Part shown: piece after piece, positions 1,204 through 29,768 of the stretch
How positions within the stretch are numbered: position 1 is the stretch's first letter
Layout: each line of letters begins with the position of its first letter
NCBI GenBank assembly: GCA_946403315.1
Contig: CAMIZK010000013.1
Location: forward strand, 1-35,536
Length of the DNA stretch: 35,536 nucleotides
Direction of reading: 5' to 3'
DNA from: an uncultured Bacteroidales bacterium
Lineage (GTDB): Bacteria; Bacteroidota; Bacteroidia; Bacteroidales; Paludibacteraceae
Program-made: the position numbers and the translations under genes
The notes under the pieces: model-generated
The model's input: the letters and a program-made list of their open reading frames with translations, nothing else
What the model was told of the DNA's origin: nothing
Databases searched by the model: none

Positions 1204-1404
1204 ATGGAAATACTGATAGCAATAGGAGCGGTTTTGGTGGCGATGGTGCTGCTGAGCATAGGGGTGATACTGAGGAAGGATCATCGTTTTCGGTCGCAAC
1301 ATATCGCAGAGAATGCGCGTATGAAGCAGGATAAGATTCATTGCGCTACTTCCCAGGATAGAGAGGCTCGGAAAACATCCAAAATGGATGTTTCCGATTT
1401 GTAA
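1204..1404 (+). CDS. small membrane protein (66 aa)
   Basis: MEILIAIGAVLVAMVLLSIGVILRKDHRFRSQHIAENARMKQDKIHCATSQDREARK...; one TM helix; ATG 1204 lies just after the promoter, so the longer ORF start is unlikely. Confidence 0.7.
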   Translation: MEILIAIGAVLVAMVLLSIGVILRKDHRFRSQHIAENARMKQDKIHCATSQDREARKTSKMDVSDL

Positions 1405-1450
1405 TTGGAGATTGGAAATTGGAGATTGGAAATTGGAAATTGCAGATTTA
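1404..1450 (+). repeat. short tandem repeat, unit ~ttggagattggaaa
   Basis: ttggagattggaaattggagattggaaattggaaattg. Confidence 0.85.
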
Positions 1451-1469
1451 AAAATTTAGATTTTAAGAT

Positions 1470-2108
1470 ATGAAAAAAGAAACAATTCAAAATGTAGTTA
1501 ATTCGGTTTTGGCAACGGCAGTCGTTGTCTTGTTTGTACTTCATTTCACTTGCGGCAGCAAGTCGTGTTCTGCTCCGGCAGAGCGTGCTCAGATCGAGGC
1601 ATCGGGTGAGTTGATGCCGATCGCGATTGTGAACACGGATTCGATCCTGTTGCATTACACCTTGGCCGTGGAGGCATCGGAGAAGCTGATGTCGCAATAT
1701 GAGGCGTCGATGGTGCAGCTGGACACGAAGGTGAAAGCCTTCCAGAAAGAGTATGCAACCTTCGAGAAGGACGTGATGGATTTCCAGAAGAAAGTGGAGG
1801 CCGGTGCGTTCCTGAGCCGTGAGCGTGCAGAGAGTGAGCAGAAAAAATTGCAGGACAAGGAGCAGCAGCTGATGGCCAAGCAGCAGGATCTGGAGAACCT
1901 GCGTCAGAAACTGAGCAACGACCTGATGGCTAACCAAGCGGCGCTGACCCAACAGCTGCAGGATTCCGTACAGGCGTATCTGAGCGAGTTCAATGCAGAC
2001 GGTCATCTGCACCTGATCGTCAACGACGCAGTGCTGCTGAATAAAGTAGCCGGCTACGATATTACCGAAGAGGTTATTGAGGCGCTCAATGCGAGATATG
2101 CAAAATGA
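1470..2108 (+). CDS. OmpH/Skp family periplasmic chaperone-like protein
   Basis: N-terminal TM/signal, IAIVNTDSILLHY motif, long coiled coil. Confidence 0.75.
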   Translation: MKKETIQNVVNSVLATAVVVLFVLHFTCGSKSCSAPAERAQIEASGELMPIAIVNTDSILLHYTLAVEASEKLMSQYEASMVQLDTKVKAFQKEYATFEKDVMDFQKKVEAGAFLSRERAESEQKKLQDKEQQLMAKQQDLENLRQKLSNDLMANQAALTQQLQDSVQAYLSEFNADGHLHLIVNDAVLLNKVAGYDITEEVIEALNARYAK

Positions 2109-2190
2109 AAAATGAAAAATGAAAGGTGAAAGGTGAAAGGTGAAAGGTGAAAGGACATATAAGGTGAAAGGTGAAAGGTTAAAGGTAAAA
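2101..2190 (+). repeat. short tandem repeat, unit ~aaaggtg
   Basis: aaatgaaaaatgaaaggtgaaaggtgaaaggtgaaaggtgaaagg...aaggtgaaaggtgaaaggttaaagg; overlaps the 5' end of the next CDS. Confidence 0.9.
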
Positions 2191-3996
2191 GGGATTCTTT
2201 TCCTTTCAATTTTCATTTTTCAATTTTCAACTTGTCTGGCGCAACGAATTCCGGAGATGATCGAGTACACGGAGGTGTATGATTTTCTGGAGGAGTTGAC
2301 GACGGACGGCGTCATACGCACCAATGCGGCCATCAAGCCGTACACGCGGGATTATATCGCGGCGCGGTTGATGGAGGCGCAGGCTAAGGACTCGTTGCTG
2401 AACAAACGGCAGAAGGACGACTTGCAGTTCTACCTGCAGGACTATGCCTTGGAATGCGACACCCTGCCGACGTATTTCAGTTATGGTCACCGGCATGTGA
2501 CGCAATGGAAGACGGAGGTGTCGAATCTGAACCTCGCTGACCCGAGTCTGCATATCCTGACCAAAGACAAGATCTTCAAGATGCGTGTGCGTCCGATATT
2601 GGGCATGGACCTGAGTTACAACAAGAAGGGTCTATGGCAGCACCGCGTCTATGGCGCCGAACTGCAGATGGATATTGCGCATCATCTCAGTATCTGGGGT
2701 TCGATACGCGATAACAGCTGGTCCGGTTTAGGTGTGGACGGTTCCAAACTGACCAAGCCGGGATATCTGAACAACCTGGCCGGTGTGCAGTACAAGGAAG
2801 CGAACTACGGCGGTGACTTCTCCGATTCGAGAGGAGGTATATCGCTCTACACCTGGTGGGGTTCCATCGGTGTACAACGGGAACGGATCACCTGGGGTGA
2901 CGCACAGCATTGTTCGAACATCCTGTCCGGTCATAACCCGGCGGTACCGATGTTCACCATCCAACTGACGCCCTGCAAATGGTTCCAATTCGATTATTTC
3001 CATGCATGGCTGCCGTCGAACGTGATCGATTCCACCTATTACTATACCGAACGCGAGAAAGAAGGCGTGACGGGTAGGGAATATCGTCCGGCCAATAAGT
3101 TCATGGCGGCGAATATGTTCACTTTCATGCCCTGTAAGTACGTGCAGTTCAGTTTCGGTAACTCGATTGTGTATGCGGAACGGAACGTGCAAGCGGCGTA
3201 TTTCATTCCTATCGCGTTCTATAAGTCGCTGGATCACCTGCTGACGAAGGGCTTGGGTTCGGAGAACCAGAACAGTCAGGCTTTTGCCACCATCACGGTA
3301 CGCCCGACGGATCATCTGCGGCTGTACGGTTCGTTCTTCCTGGATGAGTTTAAGTTAGCGCGTCTGAAGAAAGATAATCCGGAGCATAACCTCGTGTCGT
3401 ACTTAGTGGGCTTTAACTGGTCCGGCTGGCCGGTGAAGGGTCTGTCGGTACGCGGTGAGTTCATGCGTTCGTATATCGCCTGTTACACCCATTCGATCAA
3501 GGTGCTGGACTTCACGTCCAACAGTTACAACATGGGCCATTATATGGGCGACAACGCGCAGTCGATCTTTGTGCAGTTGAGTTACCGTCCGGTACGTGGT
3601 CTTAGGCTGACCTTGGACTATACGCAGGACACCAAGTACCGTGCGTATGATTATATCCGTGCTTACATTGCCGGACAACGGAATACGACCACACCGATCA
3701 TCGCGCAGAAACCCTTTGACGAACCCATCTGGCGCAATGACCAGGTGCAGTTCAGGGCGACGTATGAGGTGTTTAATAACTGCTATGCGCATGTGGATTT
3801 TACATGGAACAACGCCCGTGCCTATGCGCCTACGTCGGAAAGGATTCCGGGTGAAGACCGGGGATGGAATGCCGACGGTACGTCCAAGGAGTTAGCAGGC
3901 GATGAGTTGGCGAACTACTACCTCAATAAATATACCCCGACATACCTGCAGGGTGTGAACTACACGTTCAGTTGTGGGTTGAGTTTCGGGTTTTAA
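2140..3996 (+). CDS. capsule assembly Wzi-like outer membrane protein
   Basis: 618 aa, signal peptide, beta-barrel-like pattern, aromatic residue near C-terminus (FSCGLSFGF). Confidence 0.55.
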   Translation: MKGERTYKVKGERLKVKGILFLSIFIFQFSTCLAQRIPEMIEYTEVYDFLEELTTDGVIRTNAAIKPYTRDYIAARLMEAQAKDSLLNKRQKDDLQFYLQDYALECDTLPTYFSYGHRHVTQWKTEVSNLNLADPSLHILTKDKIFKMRVRPILGMDLSYNKKGLWQHRVYGAELQMDIAHHLSIWGSIRDNSWSGLGVDGSKLTKPGYLNNLAGVQYKEANYGGDFSDSRGGISLYTWWGSIGVQRERITWGDAQHCSNILSGHNPAVPMFTIQLTPCKWFQFDYFHAWLPSNVIDSTYYYTEREKEGVTGREYRPANKFMAANMFTFMPCKYVQFSFGNSIVYAERNVQAAYFIPIAFYKSLDHLLTKGLGSENQNSQAFATITVRPTDHLRLYGSFFLDEFKLARLKKDNPEHNLVSYLVGFNWSGWPVKGLSVRGEFMRSYIACYTHSIKVLDFTSNSYNMGHYMGDNAQSIFVQLSYRPVRGLRLTLDYTQDTKYRAYDYIRAYIAGQRNTTTPIIAQKPFDEPIWRNDQVQFRATYEVFNNCYAHVDFTWNNARAYAPTSERIPGEDRGWNADGTSKELAGDELANYYLNKYTPTYLQGVNYTFSCGLSFGF

Positions 3997-4000
3997 TGAA

Positions 4001-4067
4001 TAGACCGGTCTACGACCTCAAAGTAGAAAGACCGCTTCGCTCAAAGTAGAAAGCAATTTGTAGAAAG
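4001..4067 (+). repeat. AGTAGAAAG/ACCG...CTCAAAG repeat, left copy
   Basis: tagaccggtctacgacctcaaagtagaaagaccgcttcgctcaaagtagaaagcaatttgtagaaag. Confidence 0.85.
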
Positions 4068-4069
4068 CT

Positions 4070-4441
4070 ATGATACATAATTTTAGAGAATTAGTTGTTT
4101 GGCAAAAGTCAATGGAGTTGACTAAGCAGGTGTATGCACAGACAAAGGCGTTCCCTTCCCATGAGTTATATGGATTGACTTCTCAAATACAAAGAGCAGC
4201 GGTATCTATTCCAACCAATATAGCAGAAGGAGCAGGCCGTTCTACCAATAAGGACTTATGCCATTTCTTAAGTTTCTCAATAGGTTCTGCTTACGAACTT
4301 GAAACAGAACTTAGTCTTGCAAAAGAGTTTGAGTATATAAGTGCAGATGTATACGAGGATTTACATCTACAACTTATAGAGGTACAGAAAATGTTATATG
4401 GATTAATAAATAAACACCAAAATATTAATGACGGAAAGTAG
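4070..4441 (+). CDS. four-helix bundle protein (23S rRNA intervening-sequence protein family)
   Basis: FRELVVWQKSMELTKQVY...FPSHELYGLTSQIQRAAVSIPTNIAEGAGR: family signature. Confidence 0.92.
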   Translation: MIHNFRELVVWQKSMELTKQVYAQTKAFPSHELYGLTSQIQRAAVSIPTNIAEGAGRSTNKDLCHFLSFSIGSAYELETELSLAKEFEYISADVYEDLHLQLIEVQKMLYGLINKHQNINDGK

Positions 4442-4493
4442 ATGGCTTTGAGTAGCTTGTCTACGGTCTTTCTACTTTCTACTTTTTACTTAT
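4442..4493 (-). repeat. AGTAGAAAG/ACCG...CTCAAAG repeat, right copy, inverted
   Basis: Reverse complement reads gataagtaaaaagtagaaagtagaaagaccgtagacaagctactcaaagccat. Confidence 0.85.
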
Positions 4494-4494
4494 C

Positions 4495-6138
4495 ATGAAA
4501 AAAGAAATTCAATTCTCCCTTGTCTATCGGGACATGTGGCAGAGTAGTGGCAAGTATGTGCCGCGTAAAGATCAATTGGCGAAGATTGCACCCGTCATCA
4601 TCGACATGGGTTGCTTTGACCGTGTGGAGACCAACGGCGGTGCCAGTGAGCAAGTGAACCTCTTGTACGGCGAGAACCCGAACCAAGCCGTTCGTACGTT
4701 CTGCAAGCCGTTCAACGAGGCGGGTATCAAGACCCATATGTTGGACCGTGGTCTGAACGCATTGCGTATGAACCCGGTACCGGCCGATGTGCGTCAACTC
4801 ATGTACAAAGTAAAACATGCGCAAGGCACGGATATCACCCGTATCTTCTGCGGTCTGAATGATCCCCGTAACATCATCCCGTCTATCAAATGGGCCAAGG
4901 AAGCCGGTATGACGGCGCAGGCCACGATGTGTATCACCTATTCGAAGGTACACACGGCGGAGTACTATATCAACCTTGCCGAGCAACTGATTGCAGGCGG
5001 TGCGCAGGAGATCTGTCTGAAGGACATGGCGGGTATCGGTCGTCCGCATATGCTCGGCGTTATCGTAGCCGCAATCAAGGAGAAACATCCGGATATCATC
5101 ATTCAGTACCACGGTCATACCGGACCGGGTTTCAGTGTGGCTTCGATGCTCGAAGTGGCCAAAGCCGGTGGTGACGTGCTGGACGTAGCGATGGAACCGC
5201 TCAGTTGGGGTAAGGTACATCCGGACGTGATCACCATTCAGGCGATGCTCAAAGATGCCGGATTCCTGGTAAAAGATATCAACATGAAAGCCTACATGGA
5301 GGCACGTTCGCTCACGCAGGAGTTCATCGATGATTTCCTCGGTTATTGGATCGATCCGAAGAATGCGCTCATGACCTCGTTGCTCGTAGGCTGCGGTCTG
5401 CCGGGCGGTATGATGGGTTCGCTCATGGCGGATCTCAAAGGCATGCATGCGGCGATCAATGCGAACCTCAAGAAGAAAGGCGAGAAAGAACTGAGCGAAG
5501 ACGAGTTGTTGGTTCAACTCTTCGACGAGGTACAGCGTATCTGGCCGATGTTGGGAACACCGTGTCTCGTGACACCGTTCAGTCAGTACGTGAAGAACGC
5601 GGCACTCATGAACCTCTTCAGCCGTTCGATGGGCGAGAAAGACTTCACGCGCATGGACCCGGCGATGTGGGGTATGATCCTTGGTAAGTCCGGTAAGTTA
5701 CCGGGTGAGTTGGCTCCTGAGATCATCGAATTGGCGAAAGAGAAAGGCTATGAGTTCTACACTGACGATCCGCAGAAGTTGTATCCGAACGTGCTGCCGC
5801 AGTTCATCAAAGAGATGAAGGAACTGGGTTGGGATAGAGGACAGGACGACGAGGAGTTGTTCGAGTTCGCTATGCACGAGAAGCAGTACCGTGAGTACAA
5901 GAGCGGTCTGGCCAAAGAGCAGTTCCTCAAGGACCTCGAAGAGCGTCGTGCGAAAGCAGGAGTAGTAGTCGAAAGTCAAAAGACCGCTCCGCTCAAAGAT
6001 GAAAGCAAAAATGCTGACGAGTTGGCTGCTGTAGCATATGCTTTGTACTTGGCAGGCAAGAAACCCAAAGAGGGTATTATCACGCTGCCGGAAATTCACC
6101 CATCTGCATGGAATCATAAATATTATACACTTAAATAA
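4495..6138 (+). CDS. biotin-dependent carboxyltransferase (pyruvate carboxylase subunit B / oxaloacetate decarboxylase alpha-like) with C-terminal tail
   Basis: [67 protein letters not shown]. Confidence 0.88.
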
Positions 6139-9461: not shown

Positions 9462-9525
9462 TAGACCGCTACGCTCAAAGTAGAAAGACAAAAGTATAAA
9501 GACAAAAGTATAAAGACAAAATATA
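9462..9525 (+). repeat. AGACCGCTACGCTCAAAGTAGAAAG repeat plus acaaaagtataaag tandem units
   Basis: tagaccgctacgctcaaagtagaaagacaaaagtataaagacaaaagtataaagac fills the spacer before the M3 peptidase gene. Confidence 0.85.
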
Positions 9526-9532
9526 TTAACGA

Positions 9533-12463: not shown

Positions 12464-13125
12464 TTGCGGGTGATGAAATGAATGGATCCCATCGTAGCTA
12501 ACAGGCATACGATGCTGACCGTAATGAAGAAGACCAGGTCACGGAGGTCCAATACACCGCGTGAGATGGAGGTATAATGGTCTTGAAGCAGTACCCAGTA
12601 AAGCACAAAACAAGCGAGTGCAGCGATGATGAAGCATACGATCTGACTCTTACTGAACGTAGCGCAGAGCAGGCCGATGGCCATGAACGTACCCGATAGC
12701 AGGATAAGTCCGATGAACGAGCCCAAGAAAGCACCGCTGTCTAAGTTTCCCATCGGTTCTGCCATGTAAGAGACTACGAAATAGTGCACAAAACACGGCA
12801 ATAAGCCGATGAGCACCAAGGTCCATGCCGCCAGGTACTTACCGGTTACGATACGAGCTAAGGAGATGGGTTTGGTGCAGATCAGATCCCACATGCCTGA
12901 TTGCCGCTCTTCTGAGAACAGCCGCATCGTCAGCGCAGGGCAGAGGAACATAAAAAGCCACGGACTGAGTTGAAACAATCCGTCCACTTGGGCGTATCCC
13001 GACTCAATGATATTCCATTGACCCGGGATCACCCAAAGGAAAAGACTGATCGCCAAGAGGTACAATCCGATGACAATGTACGCAATAGGCGTAGAGAAAT
13101 AATATCTTAATTCTTTAAAGTACAT
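12460..13125 (-). CDS. gldF: gliding motility ABC transporter permease GldF-like
   Basis: MYFKELRYYFSTPIAYIVIGLYLL..., six-TM ABC-2 permease; PALTMRLFSEERQSGMWDLICTKPIS. Confidence 0.82.
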   Translation of the reverse strand: MYFKELRYYFSTPIAYIVIGLYLLAISLFLWVIPGQWNIIESGYAQVDGLFQLSPWLFMFLCPALTMRLFSEERQSGMWDLICTKPISLARIVTGKYLAAWTLVLIGLLPCFVHYFVVSYMAEPMGNLDSGAFLGSFIGLILLSGTFMAIGLLCATFSKSQIVCFIIAALACFVLYWVLLQDHYTSISRGVLDLRDLVFFITVSIVCLLATMGSIHFITRK

Positions 13126-13152
13126 TAGCCTTTAGCCTTTCGCCATTAGCCA
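13126..13152 (+). repeat. attagcctttagcctttcgccattagc repeat
   Basis: Occupies essentially the whole spacer between gldF and the MFS gene; related to 11669-11697 and 23026-23046. Confidence 0.85.
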
Positions 13153-14451
13153 TTAATGCTTAATCTCCAAATTCTTGTTCACCGGAGTCTTTGGGAAGAA
13201 GATCCAGAAACATACGGCAACGAGCAGTGCAAAACCGGCGAAGATGAACCATGCTTCTCTCCATCCGTCCCATACAGCCATCGGTCCTGCGTCTTGTACT
13301 TCCTGTGCCATGACGAGTTTATTGACGATTGCTTGTGCAGAGAGTGTACCGATGGTAGCACCCAGACCGTTGGTCATCATCATGAACAGACCCTGTGCCG
13401 AGGAACGTTGCTCCGGATGCGTCTCCTGATCTACGTACAAAGCTCCGGAGATATTGAAGAAGTCAAACGCAAAACCGTACACAATGCAACTGAGTACAAA
13501 CAGGATCACGCCGGGCATACCCGGGTCACCGGCACCGAAGAAACCGAAACGGAACACCCAGGCAAACATCGCCATCAGCATCACGTTCTTGATACCGAAT
13601 TTCTTGAGGAAGAACGGAATGGCAAGGATACACAGTGCTTCGCAGATCTGGGAAATAGAGATCAACATGTTAGCATGTTGTACACCGAAGGTGTCTGCAA
13701 AACTCTCGATATTACCGAAGGAAGTGATGAACGGGTTGGCATAGGAGTTGGTCACCTGCAAGCACATACCGAGCAGCATGGAGAAGATGAAGAACAAGGC
13801 CATCTTCTTTTGCTTAAAGAGCGTAAAGGCTTTTAAACCAAGTGCTTCCACCATGTTCACTTTACCTTCTACTTTCTTGATCTCACACTTCGGCAAGGTC
13901 AGTGAATATAAAGCCAACAAGATACTTAATCCACCACTGACCACGAACTGCCAAGGCGTAGCCTGAAATCCTAACAGGTCAATGGCCCACATCATGGCGA
14001 TGAATCCTACCGTACCGAAAACACGAATCGGCGGGAAGTCTTTGACCGTATCCATGCCGGCTTTGACTAAGGCATTGAATGCCACCGAGTTGGTCAAGGC
14101 AATGGTAGGCATGAAGAAGGCTACGGATGCCGTGTAGAGGGTGAAGAGGATGGTGAAATCCACTTGGGTAGCCGTGTACGCATACATTCCGGCACCGCAC
14201 ATGAAGAGTCCGGCTAAGCAGTGACAGAGACTAAGCACTTTCTGCGCCTGCATCCAGCGATCGGCCACGATACCCATCAAGGCCGGCATGAACAAACTGA
14301 CGATACCCTGAACGGAGTAGAACCATCCGATGTTAGAACCCATACCGATCTTTGCCAGATAGGTACCCATCGAGGTCAAATACGCACCCCAAACAGCGAA
14401 CTCCAGGAAGTTCATGCCAATGAGGCGAAACTGTAATGATCTGTTTTTCAT
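13153..14451 (-). CDS. MFS nucleoside:H+ symporter NupG/XapB-like
   Basis: 12-TM; MNFLEFAVWGAYLTSMGTYL, QGIVSLFMPALMGIVADRW. Confidence 0.82.
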   Translation of the reverse strand: MKNRSLQFRLIGMNFLEFAVWGAYLTSMGTYLAKIGMGSNIGWFYSVQGIVSLFMPALMGIVADRWMQAQKVLSLCHCLAGLFMCGAGMYAYTATQVDFTILFTLYTASVAFFMPTIALTNSVAFNALVKAGMDTVKDFPPIRVFGTVGFIAMMWAIDLLGFQATPWQFVVSGGLSILLALYSLTLPKCEIKKVEGKVNMVEALGLKAFTLFKQKKMALFFIFSMLLGMCLQVTNSYANPFITSFGNIESFADTFGVQHANMLISISQICEALCILAIPFFLKKFGIKNVMLMAMFAWVFRFGFFGAGDPGMPGVILFVLSCIVYGFAFDFFNISGALYVDQETHPEQRSSAQGLFMMMTNGLGATIGTLSAQAIVNKLVMAQEVQDAGPMAVWDGWREAWFIFAGFALLVAVCFWIFFPKTPVNKNLEIKH

Positions 14452-24552: not shown

Positions 24553-25785
24553 ATGAGAAAATTCGCGTTCATAGTAGCCTTTTTGGCGGGTTTTGGGGTT
24601 AGCCTTGCGCAGACGCACACGCATGTGTACGATCCTAATATACGTACGTTACGCGTAGAGCGTGATGTGTTGCGTCTCGGCGAAGAGGACCAACTCCATA
24701 TCTCGTTTGACGAGATGAGTCACGATGTGCATTTCTATACCTACACGGTGCACATGCGCAACAGCGATCTGCTGAGCAATGAGTACCTGAAGGGGTTTAC
24801 TACGCAAGATATCGTGGACTATGAACATTCGCTCAACACCAGCCGCGAATATACGCATTATTGGTTTGATTTCCCGAACGAGGACATGCAATTGACCAAA
24901 AGCGGTCAGTATTGTCTGACGATCTACGAGGACGGTAATCCCGAGAACAAAAAGGCCGAAGTGGAGTTCTGTGTGGTAGAACCCTTAGTTAAGATCGATG
25001 CCAGTGTACGTGCCAACACGGATATCGAGTTCAACGGCAGGTACCAGCAAGTGGATCTGGATCTGAATATCGCAGCGCTGAATATCAACGATCCGCATGA
25101 GGTGAGAGTAGTGGTGACCCAGAACAACCGTACCGATAATGCCGTCACGCTGACGCAGCCTACGTTTTTTGAATCCAAGCGGCTTCGTTATACCAACAAC
25201 AAAAACCTGATCTTCGAAGGCGGAAACGAGTACCACCATTTCGATGCCTTCTCCTGTTTCTATGCCGGTTATGGGATAGATCGCGTCTTCCATGAGAACG
25301 GCGATTATCAGGTGTTGCTTTTCTCGAACGAGATCACGCAGGGACAGTATATCCATGAGTTTGACTCCAACGGCCGTTATGTTGTCAATGCCGAGCGAAC
25401 CAACGATCCGGATACCGAAGCGGAATATATGTGGGTGCATTGGACACTTCCCGTAGAGAAACCATGGTTCGATGGCGCACTCTACATAGGCGGCGAACTC
25501 TTCAATAACGAGATGAATCTTACGAACCGCATGCAGTACGATGCCCAGGCGAAGTGCTATTGGCTCTCCTCTCTTGTCAAACAAGGCGGCTTCGATTACC
25601 AGTATTGGTTCGTACCCAAAATCAACAATCAACAATCAACAATAAACAATAAAAATACTACCACCCAACGAGTGGATGGTAGTTATTGGCAAACGGAAAA
25701 CGAGTATGCGGTCTATGTGTTCTGGCGTCCTTTCGGTGCCCGTTATGACCGTTTGGTCGGTGTGACAACAACCGTTAGCCGCTAA
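24553..25785 (+). CDS. DUF5103 / T9SS plug-like protein
   Basis: Signal peptide; HVYDPNIRTLRVERD, LRLGEEDQLHISFDE, GSYWQTENEYAVYVFWRPFGARYDRLVG. Confidence 0.82.
   Translation: MRKFAFIVAFLAGFGVSLAQTHTHVYDPNIRTLRVERDVLRLGEEDQLHISFDEMSHDVHFYTYTVHMRNSDLLSNEYLKGFTTQDIVDYEHSLNTSREYTHYWFDFPNEDMQLTKSGQYCLTIYEDGNPENKKAEVEFCVVEPLVKIDASVRANTDIEFNGRYQQVDLDLNIAALNINDPHEVRVVVTQNNRTDNAVTLTQPTFFESKRLRYTNNKNLIFEGGNEYHHFDAFSCFYAGYGIDRVFHENGDYQVLLFSNEITQGQYIHEFDSNGRYVVNAERTNDPDTEAEYMWVHWTLPVEKPWFDGALYIGGELFNNEMNLTNRMQYDAQAKCYWLSSLVKQGGFDYQYWFVPKINNQQSTINNKNTTTQRVDGSYWQTENEYAVYVFWRPFGARYDRLVGVTTTVSR
25620..25655 (+). repeat. atcaacaatcaacaatcaacaataaacaat repeat inside CDS
   Basis: 7-bp-like units encoding INNQQSTINNKN. 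Confidence 0.85.
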
Positions 25786-25812
25786 CCTTTCACCTTTCAC
25801 TTTTCACTTTCC
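25784..25812 (+). repeat. aacctttcacctttcacttttcacttt repeat
   Basis: Fills the spacer between convergent genes; overlaps pgi stop codon; related to 2101-2190. Confidence 0.85.
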
Positions 25813-27147
25813 AAGGCGCGCTTTAATCGCTTTACTTTCAGCCTCATAACCCGGTTTGTCTAATAAGGCAAACATATTCTTTTTGTATGCCTCTACGCCC
25901 GGTTGATTGAACGGATTCACGTCCAGTACGTATCCGGAGATACCGCAACCGCGTTCGAAGAAATAGATGAACTGACCGATGTTGTACTCGTCGATCTTCT
26001 CGAACGAGATATGGATGTTCGGAACACCACCGTCCACGTGTGCCAGTTGCGTACCGAGTTCAGCCATCTTGTTCACTTCATCGACCCGCTTACCGGCGAG
26101 GAAGTTGAGTCCGTCGAGGTTCTCCTCATCCATCGGAACGAGTACCTGCTTGTTGGCTTTCTCGATCGAGATGACGGTCTCGAAGATCGAACGCTCACCG
26201 TCTTGGATCCATTGACCCATCGAGTGCAGATCGGTTGTGAAATCGACACTTGCCGGGAAGATACCCTTATGGTCTTTACCTTCACTCTCACCGTACAACT
26301 GTTTCCACCACTCGCTGAAATAATGCAGTTTGGGGTTGAAGTTCACAAGAATCTCGATCTTCTTTCCGCTGCGATAGAGCGCGTTACGGATTGCCGCATA
26401 CCGGCATGCCGGGTTCTCGGCAAACGGCACTTTGACGTCCGTTGCTTTCTCCATATCCTGCGCACCCTTCACGAGCGCCTTGATATCGCCACCTGCAACC
26501 GCGATCGGCAGCAGACCTACCGGTGTGAGCACCGAGAAACGACCACCTACGTTATCGGGAATGACGAAAGTCTTGTATCCCTCTTTGGTTGCAAGCGAGC
26601 GCAGTGCACCTTTCGCACGGTCGGTCACAGCGACGATACGGTGTTTCGCTTCCTCTTTGCCTACCTGCTTCTCCAGCATGGTCTTCAGCAGACGGAAAGC
26701 CAACGCGGTCTCGGTCGTCGTACCGGATTTCGAGATGTTGATGATACCGAACTGCTTGTCGGCAATGAACTCCATGAGCTCTGCCAAGTAGTCCTCACCA
26801 ATGTTGTTACCGGCATAGACTACATACGGATTTTTACGGCCTTTCGCTACGAAGGCGTCAAAAGATGATGCTAAAGCATCATTCACGGCACGGGCACCCA
26901 GATAGGAACCACCGATACCGGCTACGATCACTACCTCGCAACGACGACGCAGCTCGTCAGCACAAGCCTGTACTTCATCCAGGAAAGCATCCGTGATCGA
27001 GGAGGGCAGATGTACCCATCCGATGTAGTCATTACCTGCACCCTGCCCGTTCTCTAACAATGCGTTAGCGGCTTCCGTTTGTGCTTCCAGTTGTTTCAAT
27101 GCTGCCGCGTCAACAAACGAAGCAGCGTTCTTCAGACATAATTGCAT
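25804..27147 (-). CDS. pgi: glucose-6-phosphate isomerase
   Basis: [43 protein letters not shown]. Confidence 0.96.
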
Positions 27148-27148
27148 A

Positions 27149-28138
27149 TTATTGTAGTTTTGTTGTTAATGACTTGATGATCGGTTTTGCTTTCTGCTTG
27201 TTGTACAGGATCTCGTACATCGCATCGACGATGGGGATCGACACACGCAGACGCTCGTTGATGTCATGGATCGCCTTGGTGCCGTAATAGCCTTCGGCTA
27301 CCATCTCCATCTCCATCTGCGCAGCCTTCACCGAGTATCCCAGACCTAACATTTGACCGAACTGACGGTTACGGCTGAACTGAGAATAACCCGTTACCAG
27401 CACGTCGCCCAGGTATCCCGATGCGGTGATGTCACGCGGCACATTGCTTACCGCCGTCGCAAAACGCTGGATCTCCTGAATGGAGTTGGACAGCAGCACG
27501 GCTTGGAAATTATCGCCGTAATGCAGCGCCTGACACATACCGGCGGCAATGGCGTAGATGTTCTTGAGCACCGAACTGTACTCCAGACCGATCACGTCGT
27601 TCGAGATCGTCGTGTGAACATACTCCGTCTGGAACAGTTTCGCCCATGCCTCGGCATTCTGCCGGTTCTCGCAACCGATGGTGAGGTAACTCAACCGCTC
27701 CAGAGCGATCTCTTCCGCATGACACGGACCGGCAATAACGCCTAACTGGTCATACGGGATACCGAAACGCTGGTGCAGATAGTCCGTGATGATGATGTTC
27801 TCCTCCGGAATCATACCTTTGACTGCGGAAATAACCACTTTATGGGTCATATCGCGACGGATCTTACTCAGCGTCTGCTTCACGTATGGTGAAGGAATGG
27901 CTAATATCAGCACATCGGATTGTGCTACGGTCTGGTTGATGTCGGAAGAGAAATGAATACGACTCACCTCAAACTCCGCTACACCCAGATAATTCGGGTT
28001 CTTTCCGGTGGTGATGAACTCATCGATCACCTCCTGCCGACGGATGAACCAGTTGATCTCTCCCTGATTCTGCATCACGATCTTCGCCAACGCCGTCGCC
28101 CATGATCCGGAACCTAAGATGGCTACTTTTCTATACAT
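27149..28138 (-). CDS. gpsA: glycerol-3-phosphate dehydrogenase NAD(P)+
   Basis: [45 protein letters not shown]. Confidence 0.95.
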
Positions 28139-28176
28139 ATCCTTTGTCCTTTGTACATTGTACATTGTACATCGTC
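28139..28176 (+). repeat. tttgtcctttgtacattgtacattgtacat repeat
   Basis: Fills the spacer between lysS stop and gpsA start. Confidence 0.85.
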
Positions 28177-28178
28177 CC

Positions 28179-29768
28179 TTATTCCGGACGCATCGTCGGG
28201 AACAATAAAACCTCCTGTATGGTGGGCTGTCCGGTCATAAACATCGTCAGACGGTCGATACCGATACCGATACCCGAGGTCGGCGGCATACCGTACTCGA
28301 GTGCACGCATGAAGTCATGATCGATCACCATCGCCTCGTCGTCACCCTTGTCGGCTAACTTCATCTGCTCCACAAAGCGGTTGTATTGGTCAATGGGGTC
28401 GTTGAGTTCGGAATAAGCGTTCGCCAACTCCTTACCGTTCACCATCAACTCAAAACGCTCGGTCAGACCCGGTTTGCTGCGGTGCATCTTCGTCAGCGGA
28501 GACATCTCCACCGGATAATCGGTGATGAAAGTCGGCTGGATGAAGGTGCCCTCGCAAGTCTCACCGAAGATCTCGTCGATCAGTTTGCCCTTACCCATGT
28601 GCTCCGTATCTTCCACACCTAATTTCTTGGCCTCCACACGGATCTCGTCTTCGGTCATGGACGCCAAGTCCAGACCCGTCTTCTCCTTGATGGCATCGAG
28701 GATAGGCAGACGGCGGTACGGTGCTTTGAAATCGACCTCGTGGTCACCGATCTGCACCTTGGTCGTGCCGTTGACCGCAATAGCGATCTTCTCTAACAAC
28801 TGCTCGGTGAAGCTCATCATCCAGTTATAGTCCTTGTATTGTACGTACAGCTCCATGCAGGTGAACTCGGGGTTGTGGCTGCGGTCCATACCTTCGTTAC
28901 GGAAGTTACGGCCGATCTCATACACACCCTCAAAACCGCCTACGATCAGCCGCTTCAGGTACAACTCCGTTGCGATACGCAGGTACATATCTACGTCCAG
29001 CGAGTTATGATGCGTGATGAACGGACGAGCCGAAGCACCACCGGCAATCTGCTGCAGGATCGGGGTCTCCACCTCCGTGTAACCTGCCTCGTCGAACACC
29101 TGACGCATGGTGCGCAGGATCGTCGCACGCTTGAGGAACGTGTCCTTCACGCCTTCGTTGACTACCAAGTCCACGTACCGTTGACGGTAACGCTGCTCCG
29201 GATCATTAAATCCGTCATAAGCCACACCGTCCTTGTATTTCACGATCGGTAACGGACGAAGACTCTTCGCCAGCACCGTCAGTTTCTTGGCATGCACGGA
29301 GATCTCACCCATCTGGGTGCGGAACACAAATCCCTCGATACCGATGAAGTCACCGATGTCCAGCAGTTTCTTGAATACCACGTTGTACATCTGCTGCTCT
29401 ACGGTCAATCCACCATTTGCATCATTTGCACCATTTGCATCATTCGGCTCCGCAGGAGCTTGAATATCATCGCGGCTCACATACACCTGGATACGTCCTT
29501 TGCTGTCCTGAATCTCGATGAACGACGCCTTACCCATGATTCGTTTGGACATCAAACGACCTGCAATCCGCACTTCATCACCCGTGTGCCAGATACGTTC
29601 ACCATTTGCATCATTTGCATCATTTGCATCATTGTCCACGAAGTGGGCCTTAATTTCCGTCGAGTACCCCGTCACCACATATTCGGCTGCAGGGTAGGGA
29701 TCGATGCCCATATCCCGCATGGTTTGCAGACTTTGTCTGCGTACGATTTCTTGTTCAGATAATTCCAT
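28179..29768 (-). CDS. lysS: lysyl-tRNA synthetase (class II)
   Basis: RIMGKASFIEIQDSKGRIQVYV, FRNEGMDRSHNPEFTCMELY, GMPPTSGIGIGIDRL. Confidence 0.96.
   Translation of the reverse strand: MELSEQEIVRRQSLQTMRDMGIDPYPAAEYVVTGYSTEIKAHFVDNDANDANDANGERIWHTGDEVRIAGRLMSKRIMGKASFIEIQDSKGRIQVYVSRDDIQAPAEPNDANGANDANGGLTVEQQMYNVVFKKLLDIGDFIGIEGFVFRTQMGEISVHAKKLTVLAKSLRPLPIVKYKDGVAYDGFNDPEQRYRQRYVDLVVNEGVKDTFLKRATILRTMRQVFDEAGYTEVETPILQQIAGGASARPFITHHNSLDVDMYLRIATELYLKRLIVGGFEGVYEIGRNFRNEGMDRSHNPEFTCMELYVQYKDYNWMMSFTEQLLEKIAIAVNGTTKVQIGDHEVDFKAPYRRLPILDAIKEKTGLDLASMTEDEIRVEAKKLGVEDTEHMGKGKLIDEIFGETCEGTFIQPTFITDYPVEMSPLTKMHRSKPGLTERFELMVNGKELANAYSELNDPIDQYNRFVEQMKLADKGDDEAMVIDHDFMRALEYGMPPTSGIGIGIDRLTMFMTGQPTIQEVLLFPTMRPE

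Follow-up and report, generated by a model that had tools for sequence, protein, structure and literature searches.

A Wzi-like locus with an intervening-sequence protein gene

The DNA analysed here, which we refer to as the window, is a stretch of 35,536 nucleotides from an uncultured Bacteroidales bacterium (contig C13 of genome G000, 1.5 Mb, 74% complete; genomes, contigs and loci are cited by our G, C and L handles). The named relatives closest in IVP sequence also point to Bacteroidales as the probable affiliation of G000. Between a Wzi-like gene and a carboxyltransferase gene, the window contains a small open reading frame (ORF) that encodes an intervening-sequence protein (IVP) and is enclosed by short repeats in mirror orientation. 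The locus is composed as follows:

2140–3996, plus strand: upstream host gene, Wzi-like (Caps_assemb_Wzi, E 5e-6, below the Pfam cut-off)
4001–4069, plus strand: upstream arm, an array of heptamer type in which the unit CTCAAAGTAGAAAG is found twice, together with a small hairpin (GGTC TAC GACC, 4007–4017); it begins closely behind the Wzi-like stop codon
4070–4441, plus strand: IVP (four helix bundle) gene, 123 aa, with matches to PF05635 and TIGR02436, an Avd-like predicted fold and a low rate of non-synonymous substitution
4442–4491, minus strand: downstream arm, reverse-complement units with AAAGTAGAAAG at 4468–4478 and 4475–4485 and a hairpin (GTAG..CTAC, 4452–4464); it stops just short of the next start codon
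4495–6138, plus strand: downstream host gene, carboxyltransferase (PYC_OADA and HMGL-like domain matches)

In a profile search, the ORF matched PF05635 (23S_rRNA_IVP) with an E value of 4e-39 and TIGR02436 (four helix bundle protein) with an E value of 1.5e-37, which confirmed the family signature of proteins from rRNA intervening sequences (IVS) that the initial annotation had read from the sequence. Its observation of inverted repeat copies around the gene also proved correct, as did the two neighbouring genes it named, with the reservation on the Wzi match given above. CTCAAAGTAGAAAG is present twice in the left flank (4017–4030 and 4040–4053), and the flanks share a perfect inverted match of 15 nt (4020–4034 with 4464–4478) and another of 24 nt at 75%. 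The IVP cassette of the window is of the AAAGTAGA type; with at most one mismatch, AAAGTAGAAAG occurs nine times in the window, where 0.53 occurrences are expected.

The arrays in the genus of the window hold small hairpins of the form AGACC-stem-loop-stem-TGACAG, in which the stem sequence changes (4003–4017 and 4452–4464 in the window; arms of L006, L008 and L013). Between G000 and G004 the stems and loops differ and the flanking units are identical. A second IVP gene of G000, from another subfamily (L002, contig C3, 44543–44836), has inverted ACAATGT arrays on either side.

Inverted heptamer arrays around IVP genes

IVP genes were detected by profile search in 43 of 61 relatives, with up to 15 per genome, and most of the relatives' loci that we examined had short repeats in mirror orientation on both sides, the repeat varying from locus to locus. 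The longest inverted match between 150-nt flanks was determined, with flanks re-paired between loci as the null. At 31 loci of relatives it averaged 10.7 nt, against 6.85 nt after re-pairing (maximum of 300 re-pairings, 7.7). Similarly, at 78 named loci from at least a dozen phyla (Bacteroidota, Chloroflexota, Nitrospirota, Planctomycetota, Acidobacteriota, Verrucomicrobiota, Pseudomonadota, groups of the candidate phyla radiation (CPR) and others) the mean inverted arm match was 10.4 nt, compared with 7.34 nt for 716 control genes taken from the same stretches (p 2e-17; re-paired maximum 7.3). Direct, non-inverted matches between the flanks of these 78 loci were not raised. Twelve loci on cyanobacterial plasmids gave an inverted match of 13.5 against 7.1 (maximum 8.7).

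The self-match of the flanks peaked only at lags 7, 14 and 21 (0.43, 0.40 and 0.35 downstream; 0.38, 0.36 and 0.34 upstream; controls about 0.29), and at lag 7 it reached 0.485 in the cyanobacterial plasmid set; the dispersed repeat is therefore a tandem heptamer array. Most of these IVP genes share one layout: a tandem array upstream, the ORF, and on its downstream side that array in reverse complement. The heptamer unit depends on the lineage, and GAGATTT, AGACACA, GTACCAA, AGTAGGG and GTAGAAA are among the examples. This period of 7 nt, with a unit changing between IVP lineages, had been overlooked in the initial annotation, which also understated the finding in another respect: the window holds arrays of other units, and IVP genes in general show the same layout. 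The IVP gene shared its strand with both neighbours in 94 of 108 cases (control small genes, 68 of 104), and the cassette is probably expressed together with the neighbouring operon genes.

In many Bacteroidota, the gap between thiolase-like and acyl-CoA-dehydrogenase-like genes hosts IVP cassettes that belong to several lineages and differ in their units (L045, L046, L049, L053, L064, L073, L086 and L110), as if it were an insertion hot spot. A search of phage records for IVP returned no match.

The arrays and the proteins are inherited together. Array similarity tracked IVP protein similarity (Mantel r 0.27, none of 999 permutations as high); the relation was orientation-specific, became much weaker in flanks farther out, and persisted for pairs with unrelated neighbour genes (r 0.20, 0 of 999). 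One IVP clade with a support of 99% in the Shimodaira–Hasegawa-like approximate likelihood ratio test (SH-aLRT; L045, L054, L061, L064, L073, L085 and L094) spans Sphingobacteriales, Cytophagales, Bacteroidales and Flavobacteriales, and its GAGATTT-type arms lie in different gaps, namely sdhA/sdhB-type, thiolase/acyl-CoA dehydrogenase and fadB-type/thiolase. Similar GAGATTT-type arms surround another IVP gene (L041), which is situated upstream of an atpC-type gene; these sdhA/sdhB, thiolase, fadB and atpC-type names are our reading of translated gene ends. In the genomes of these eight GAGATTT-type loci, 31.9 Mb in total, GAGATTTGAGA has 83 occurrences and its reversed control 12; in seventeen other genomes, 80.1 Mb in total, the numbers are 82 and 38. 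AAAGTAGAAAGNNGAAAG was also counted across the genus, but these counts were set aside as uninformative, since the sequence that serves as reversed control is one phase of arrays of this kind.

Spacers without the ORF, the empty sites that the initial annotation suggested looking for, were found in relatives at three sites. In the gap between the Wzi-like and carboxyltransferase genes, the ORF was present only in G000 and G004 among the congeners fetched; G003 has a bare spacer (TTTTAAACAATCTATTATATG), G031 a nearly bare one, and six have solo stretches of repeats with other units. At the site of an EamA-like gene, five genomes have a spacer of a single nucleotide (TAAT|ATG), G009 and G002 a solo array, and G015, G032 and G001 a full cassette. 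At the rpiB site the cassette was seen only in G002, solo arrays in G034 and G015, and spacers of 17–20 nt in many others.

Genomes that bear the cassette also hold solo arrays, with the same or similar units. A scan at lag 7 identified 65 arrays in eight IVP-bearing genomes (864 kb scanned); five IVP-less genomes that are at least 98% complete (G028, G044, G051, G057 and G059) had none in 735 kb. Among less complete IVP-less genomes, one array was found in G016, 17 in G003 and 9 in G036. Over all 17 genomes of the scan Spearman's rho was 0.57 (p 0.016), and in array-bearing genomes lag 7 stood above the other lags. Most solo arrays occupy gaps between co-directional genes; their ends are a median of 13 nt away from the next start codon, and they are purine-rich on the sense strand (54:23). 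An inverted partner of at least 10 nt was found for only 13 of 170 (4 in the null), in which they differ from the IVP loci, and an arrangement of solo arrays as inverted pairs, of the kind known from doublets of repetitive extragenic palindromic (REP) sequences (REPINs) or miniature inverted-repeat transposable elements (MITEs), was rejected on this count.

The window itself contains, besides its cassette and the array at 9462, at least six heptamer arrays of other units; they are listed here along with the array at 9462 and a degenerate unit:

1396–1453, plus strand: solo array, GATTGGA/AATTGGA (array scan)
2089–2197, plus strand: solo array, GAAAAAT and GAAAGGT (array scan)
5968–6008, plus strand: in-frame degenerate unit of the repeat, within the carboxyltransferase's C-terminal linker (sequence and protein alignment)
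9462–9528, plus strand: solo array (AAAGTAGAAAGACAAAAGTATAAAGAC...) between two genes, with no ORF (repeat search)
13121–13157, minus strand: solo array between two minus-strand genes (array scan)
25612–25660, unstranded: solo array, CAATCAA (array scan)
25772–25814, unstranded: solo array, CTTTCAC (array scan)
28135–28185, minus strand: solo array, ACATTGT, the unit type that flanks the IVP gene of L002 (array scan)

Of the two ORF-less copies reported initially, the one at 9462 is a clear intergenic solo array, and the one near 5970 turned out to be the degenerate unit within the carboxyltransferase linker, whose length and content vary between species. Heptamer-like runs were seen by protein alignment in this linker in several species (also in L133, L142 and L146), in frame and with differing sequences.

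The IVP protein and its relation to known systems

The ratio of non-synonymous to synonymous substitutions (dN/dS) of the window gene was 0.06 against its G004 orthologue, and 0.04–0.10 in the family where it could be estimated, which indicates that the protein is constrained by strong purifying selection. Some IVP copies have internal stop codons (G033:C5:51125, G048:C596:3848, G008:C64:30431 and G011:C27:15360), and judging from these sequences decayed copies coexist with constrained ones. The predicted structure of the window protein (predicted local distance difference test score, pLDDT, 95) matches Xanthomonas Xcc0516 (2gsc) with a root mean square deviation of 0.7, and gives a template modelling (TM) score of about 0.8 with the Avd chains of diversity-generating retroelements (DGRs; 4dwl and 8ub7). 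Xcc0516 is described as a homopentamer of four-helix bundles (PMC4990558).

We also looked for a helper enzyme acting in trans. Y1 transposases and reverse transcriptases were sought in the 61 genomes, and neither is required: Y1_Tnp had no match in G000 or G014, RVT_1 had none in G000 (74% complete), and G014, G033, G034 and G004, which are 96–98% complete and carry 4–7 IVP genes, have neither a Y1 transposase nor a reverse transcriptase. This candidate was therefore rejected.

Four-helix-bundle IVP proteins first came to notice in the 1990s, in intervening sequences of rRNA. The IVS of 23S and 16S rRNA genes (Leptospira, Coxiella, CPR), which encode S23p/IVP, share with the window element the protein family and the terminal inverted repeats. 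In the Coxiella IVS, three GACAGAT heptamers immediately precede the ORF (PMC4990558), and ORF-bearing and ORF-less forms occur at the same site of CPR rRNA (PMC11270868). The rRNA IVS, however, lies in an rRNA gene, whereas the window element lies between two protein genes; in addition, strong purifying selection acts on the ORF of the latter, in contrast to the copy in Coxiella, which is decaying (PMC4990558), and the solo arrays of the window element are dispersed over the genome. We note that there is a real chance that this element, IVS-like and outside rRNA, is a class of its own.

In systems of REP-associated tyrosine transposases (RAYT-REP), the gene is flanked by an inverted short repeat, solo copies are dispersed in intergenic DNA, and each gene lineage has its own repeat. 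The IVP gene likewise lies between inverted copies of a dispersed, lineage-specific repeat. In contrast to RAYT-REP and REPIN systems, it has no Y1 (HUH) tyrosine transposase domain, its repeats are 7-nt tandem arrays, and its solo copies are mostly single rather than inverted pairs. With Avd, the accessory protein of DGRs, the window protein would share the fold, according to the predicted structure, and there are weak sequence matches, although it scores 26 against an Avd equivalog cut-off of 80 bits and, unlike DGRs, the hosts of the IVP cassette need no reverse transcriptase. No pair of template and variable repeats was seen, no search having been aimed at one. IVP proteins have been described as Avd relatives (PMC10053308).

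Heptamer arrays are known as TAACTGA in Beggiatoaceae, Cyanobacteria and Bacteroidetes (PMC4679880) and as GGGNATC in Xanthomonas and Nostoc (PMC4692102). Together with the short tandemly repeated repetitive (STRR) sequences of cyanobacteria, they resemble the present arrays in having 7-nt units and in being intergenic, orientation-biased and near start codons (PMC4679880, PMC4692102). No protein was tied to them in the papers we found, whereas here an IVP gene lies between mirror-image arrays. Our literature search returned no report joining IVP proteins to heptamer arrays; most subscription journals were outside its coverage, so this is no proof of absence.

IVP genes have been reported in cas loci (PMC3936711) and near arrays of clustered regularly interspaced short palindromic repeats (CRISPR; PMC10910872). 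Two plasmid loci of this family likewise have heptamer-type arrays around an IVP gene between cas6 and cas4, in Anabaena sp. 90 (L330, 1195–1563) and Pseudanabaena galeata (L331, 1201–1560); the two arrays of the latter are direct and not inverted. The cas-locus IVP gene reads as another operon gap hit by the cassette rather than as a Cas function, and such cas6/cas4 cassettes may explain the published associations of IVP with CRISPR. Heptamer arrays could also mislead CRISPR finders.

Interpretation of the cassette

Taken as a whole, the feature is probably one copy of a widespread insertion cassette, in which an Avd-like IVP gene enclosed by mirror-oriented, lineage-specific 7-nt arrays occupies an operon gap. 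The initial annotation regarded protein and repeat as a possible mobile or repeat-spreading system; the unit does have that look, and the interpretation given there is partly supported overall. Two results that would have spoken against it, other IVP genes without such flanks and a lack of ORF-less spacers in relatives, were checked for, and neither was obtained. By analogy, the cassette is best read as a mobile or repeat-spreading element that would work in a manner similar to RAYT-REP with a non-enzymatic protein. It seems most likely that the IVP protein, which forms a pentamer in its structurally solved relatives, recognises the cognate array in single-stranded form, either as DNA or as RNA. 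It would bring complementary arms or arrays together and leave the copying to replication, repair or annealing enzymes of the host, so that arrays would spread and the whole cassette would move less often, into exposed operon gaps. We propose this mechanism because of the Avd-like fold, the co-variation of array and protein, and the absence of an enzyme.

Several points weigh against a mobile cassette. No target-site duplication was established, the spacers compared between empty and full sites being too divergent between species to define a junction, and movement of the cassette or of arrays was not observed. Two IVP-less genomes at 73–75% completeness, G003 and G036, are rich in arrays (10–12 per 100 kb; L195–L207), and their IVP gene, like that of G016, may lie in the missing quarter of the genome or have been lost. 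About one third of IVP loci have no inverted match of at least 9 nt. GAGATTTGAGA is also common outside its clade, with G108 and G109 giving nearly half of the count in the seventeen genomes. The window protein is acidic (pI, the isoelectric point, 5.7; family median 7.9), so that nucleic-acid binding is not obvious from its charge.

The strongest rival explanation, which we consider unlikely, gives the arrays a purely regulatory role: IVP would be a regulator that binds RNA, with the arrays in mRNA leaders and gaps as its target sites. They would have arisen by replication slippage and been kept by selection, with mobility only by ordinary recombination. TRAP, which binds spaced triplets, offers an analogy, and the proximity of the arrays to start codons and their purine-rich sense strand would suit such a role. 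The arms of the window cassette are mostly unchanged between G000 and G004 (61 of 72 and 50 of 56 aligned positions) despite a synonymous divergence of 0.58, and constraint or homogenisation is therefore acting on them. A translational role was proposed by MacGregor for TAACTGA arrays (PMC4679880). However, regulation leaves unexplained the mirror-image arms around the gene, the same gene-plus-array unit at unrelated operons in different orders, and the strong divergence of the unit between lineages. Less probable still is that the arrays come from host slippage or from some other source and serve as landing pads for recombination, on which IVP genes are passengers that arrive by homologous or illegitimate recombination. 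It is true that there are many more solo arrays than IVP genes, that G003 and G036 bear arrays with no IVP gene detected, and that many genomes are enriched in heptamers as simple repeats (PMC4692102). Passengers would not account for the inverted arms at IVP genes when solo arrays seldom have an inverted partner, nor for the tracking of IVP lineage by array type, and this model is weakened because the near-complete IVP-less genomes are without arrays.

The initial annotation had also likened the flanks to the transcript stem of an rRNA IVS, and the corresponding explanation would have the arms pair in the transcript and RNase III cut the stem, so that the insertion is silent in RNA. The pairing part stands: the arms are able to form a helix closing around the ORF. 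The protein family is shared with rRNA IVS ORFs, and the Coxiella IVS combines a 28-bp terminal stem with heptamers beside its ORF and RNase III cleavage (PMC4990558). On the other hand, the fold of the window cassette is unremarkable (z −1.35, 10 of 100 shuffles as good) and the mismatches between arms do not prefer G.U over A.C (104:89, p 0.31); selection on an RNA stem was thus not supported. Excision would also be needless for an insertion between cistrons, and we regard this explanation as very improbable.

Returning to the mobile cassette, a broader proposal can be made, which we put forward tentatively. IVP proteins may be the agents of a categorically new class of bacterial mobile elements, in which a non-enzymatic Avd-like pentamer has its own cognate 7-nt array as the mobile DNA and writes or anneals heptamer arrays into operon gaps genome-wide, with one unit per protein lineage. 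Such a class would explain where the heptamer repeats of Bacteroidota, Cyanobacteria, Beggiatoaceae and Xanthomonas come from, and rRNA IVS would be one special target.

We know of no function for IVP proteins, whose structures have been solved, and of no maker of heptameric repeats, in which many bacterial genomes are enriched. The inverted-array layout links these two orphans in one concrete hypothesis for both. Each IVP protein thereby gets a defined candidate substrate, its cognate heptamer array, so that binding and mobility are directly testable. It would also give an ordinary explanation for IVP genes beside CRISPR-cas genes. The combination of a small, widespread gene with inverted runs of heptamers suggests an undescribed kind of tiny mobile element.
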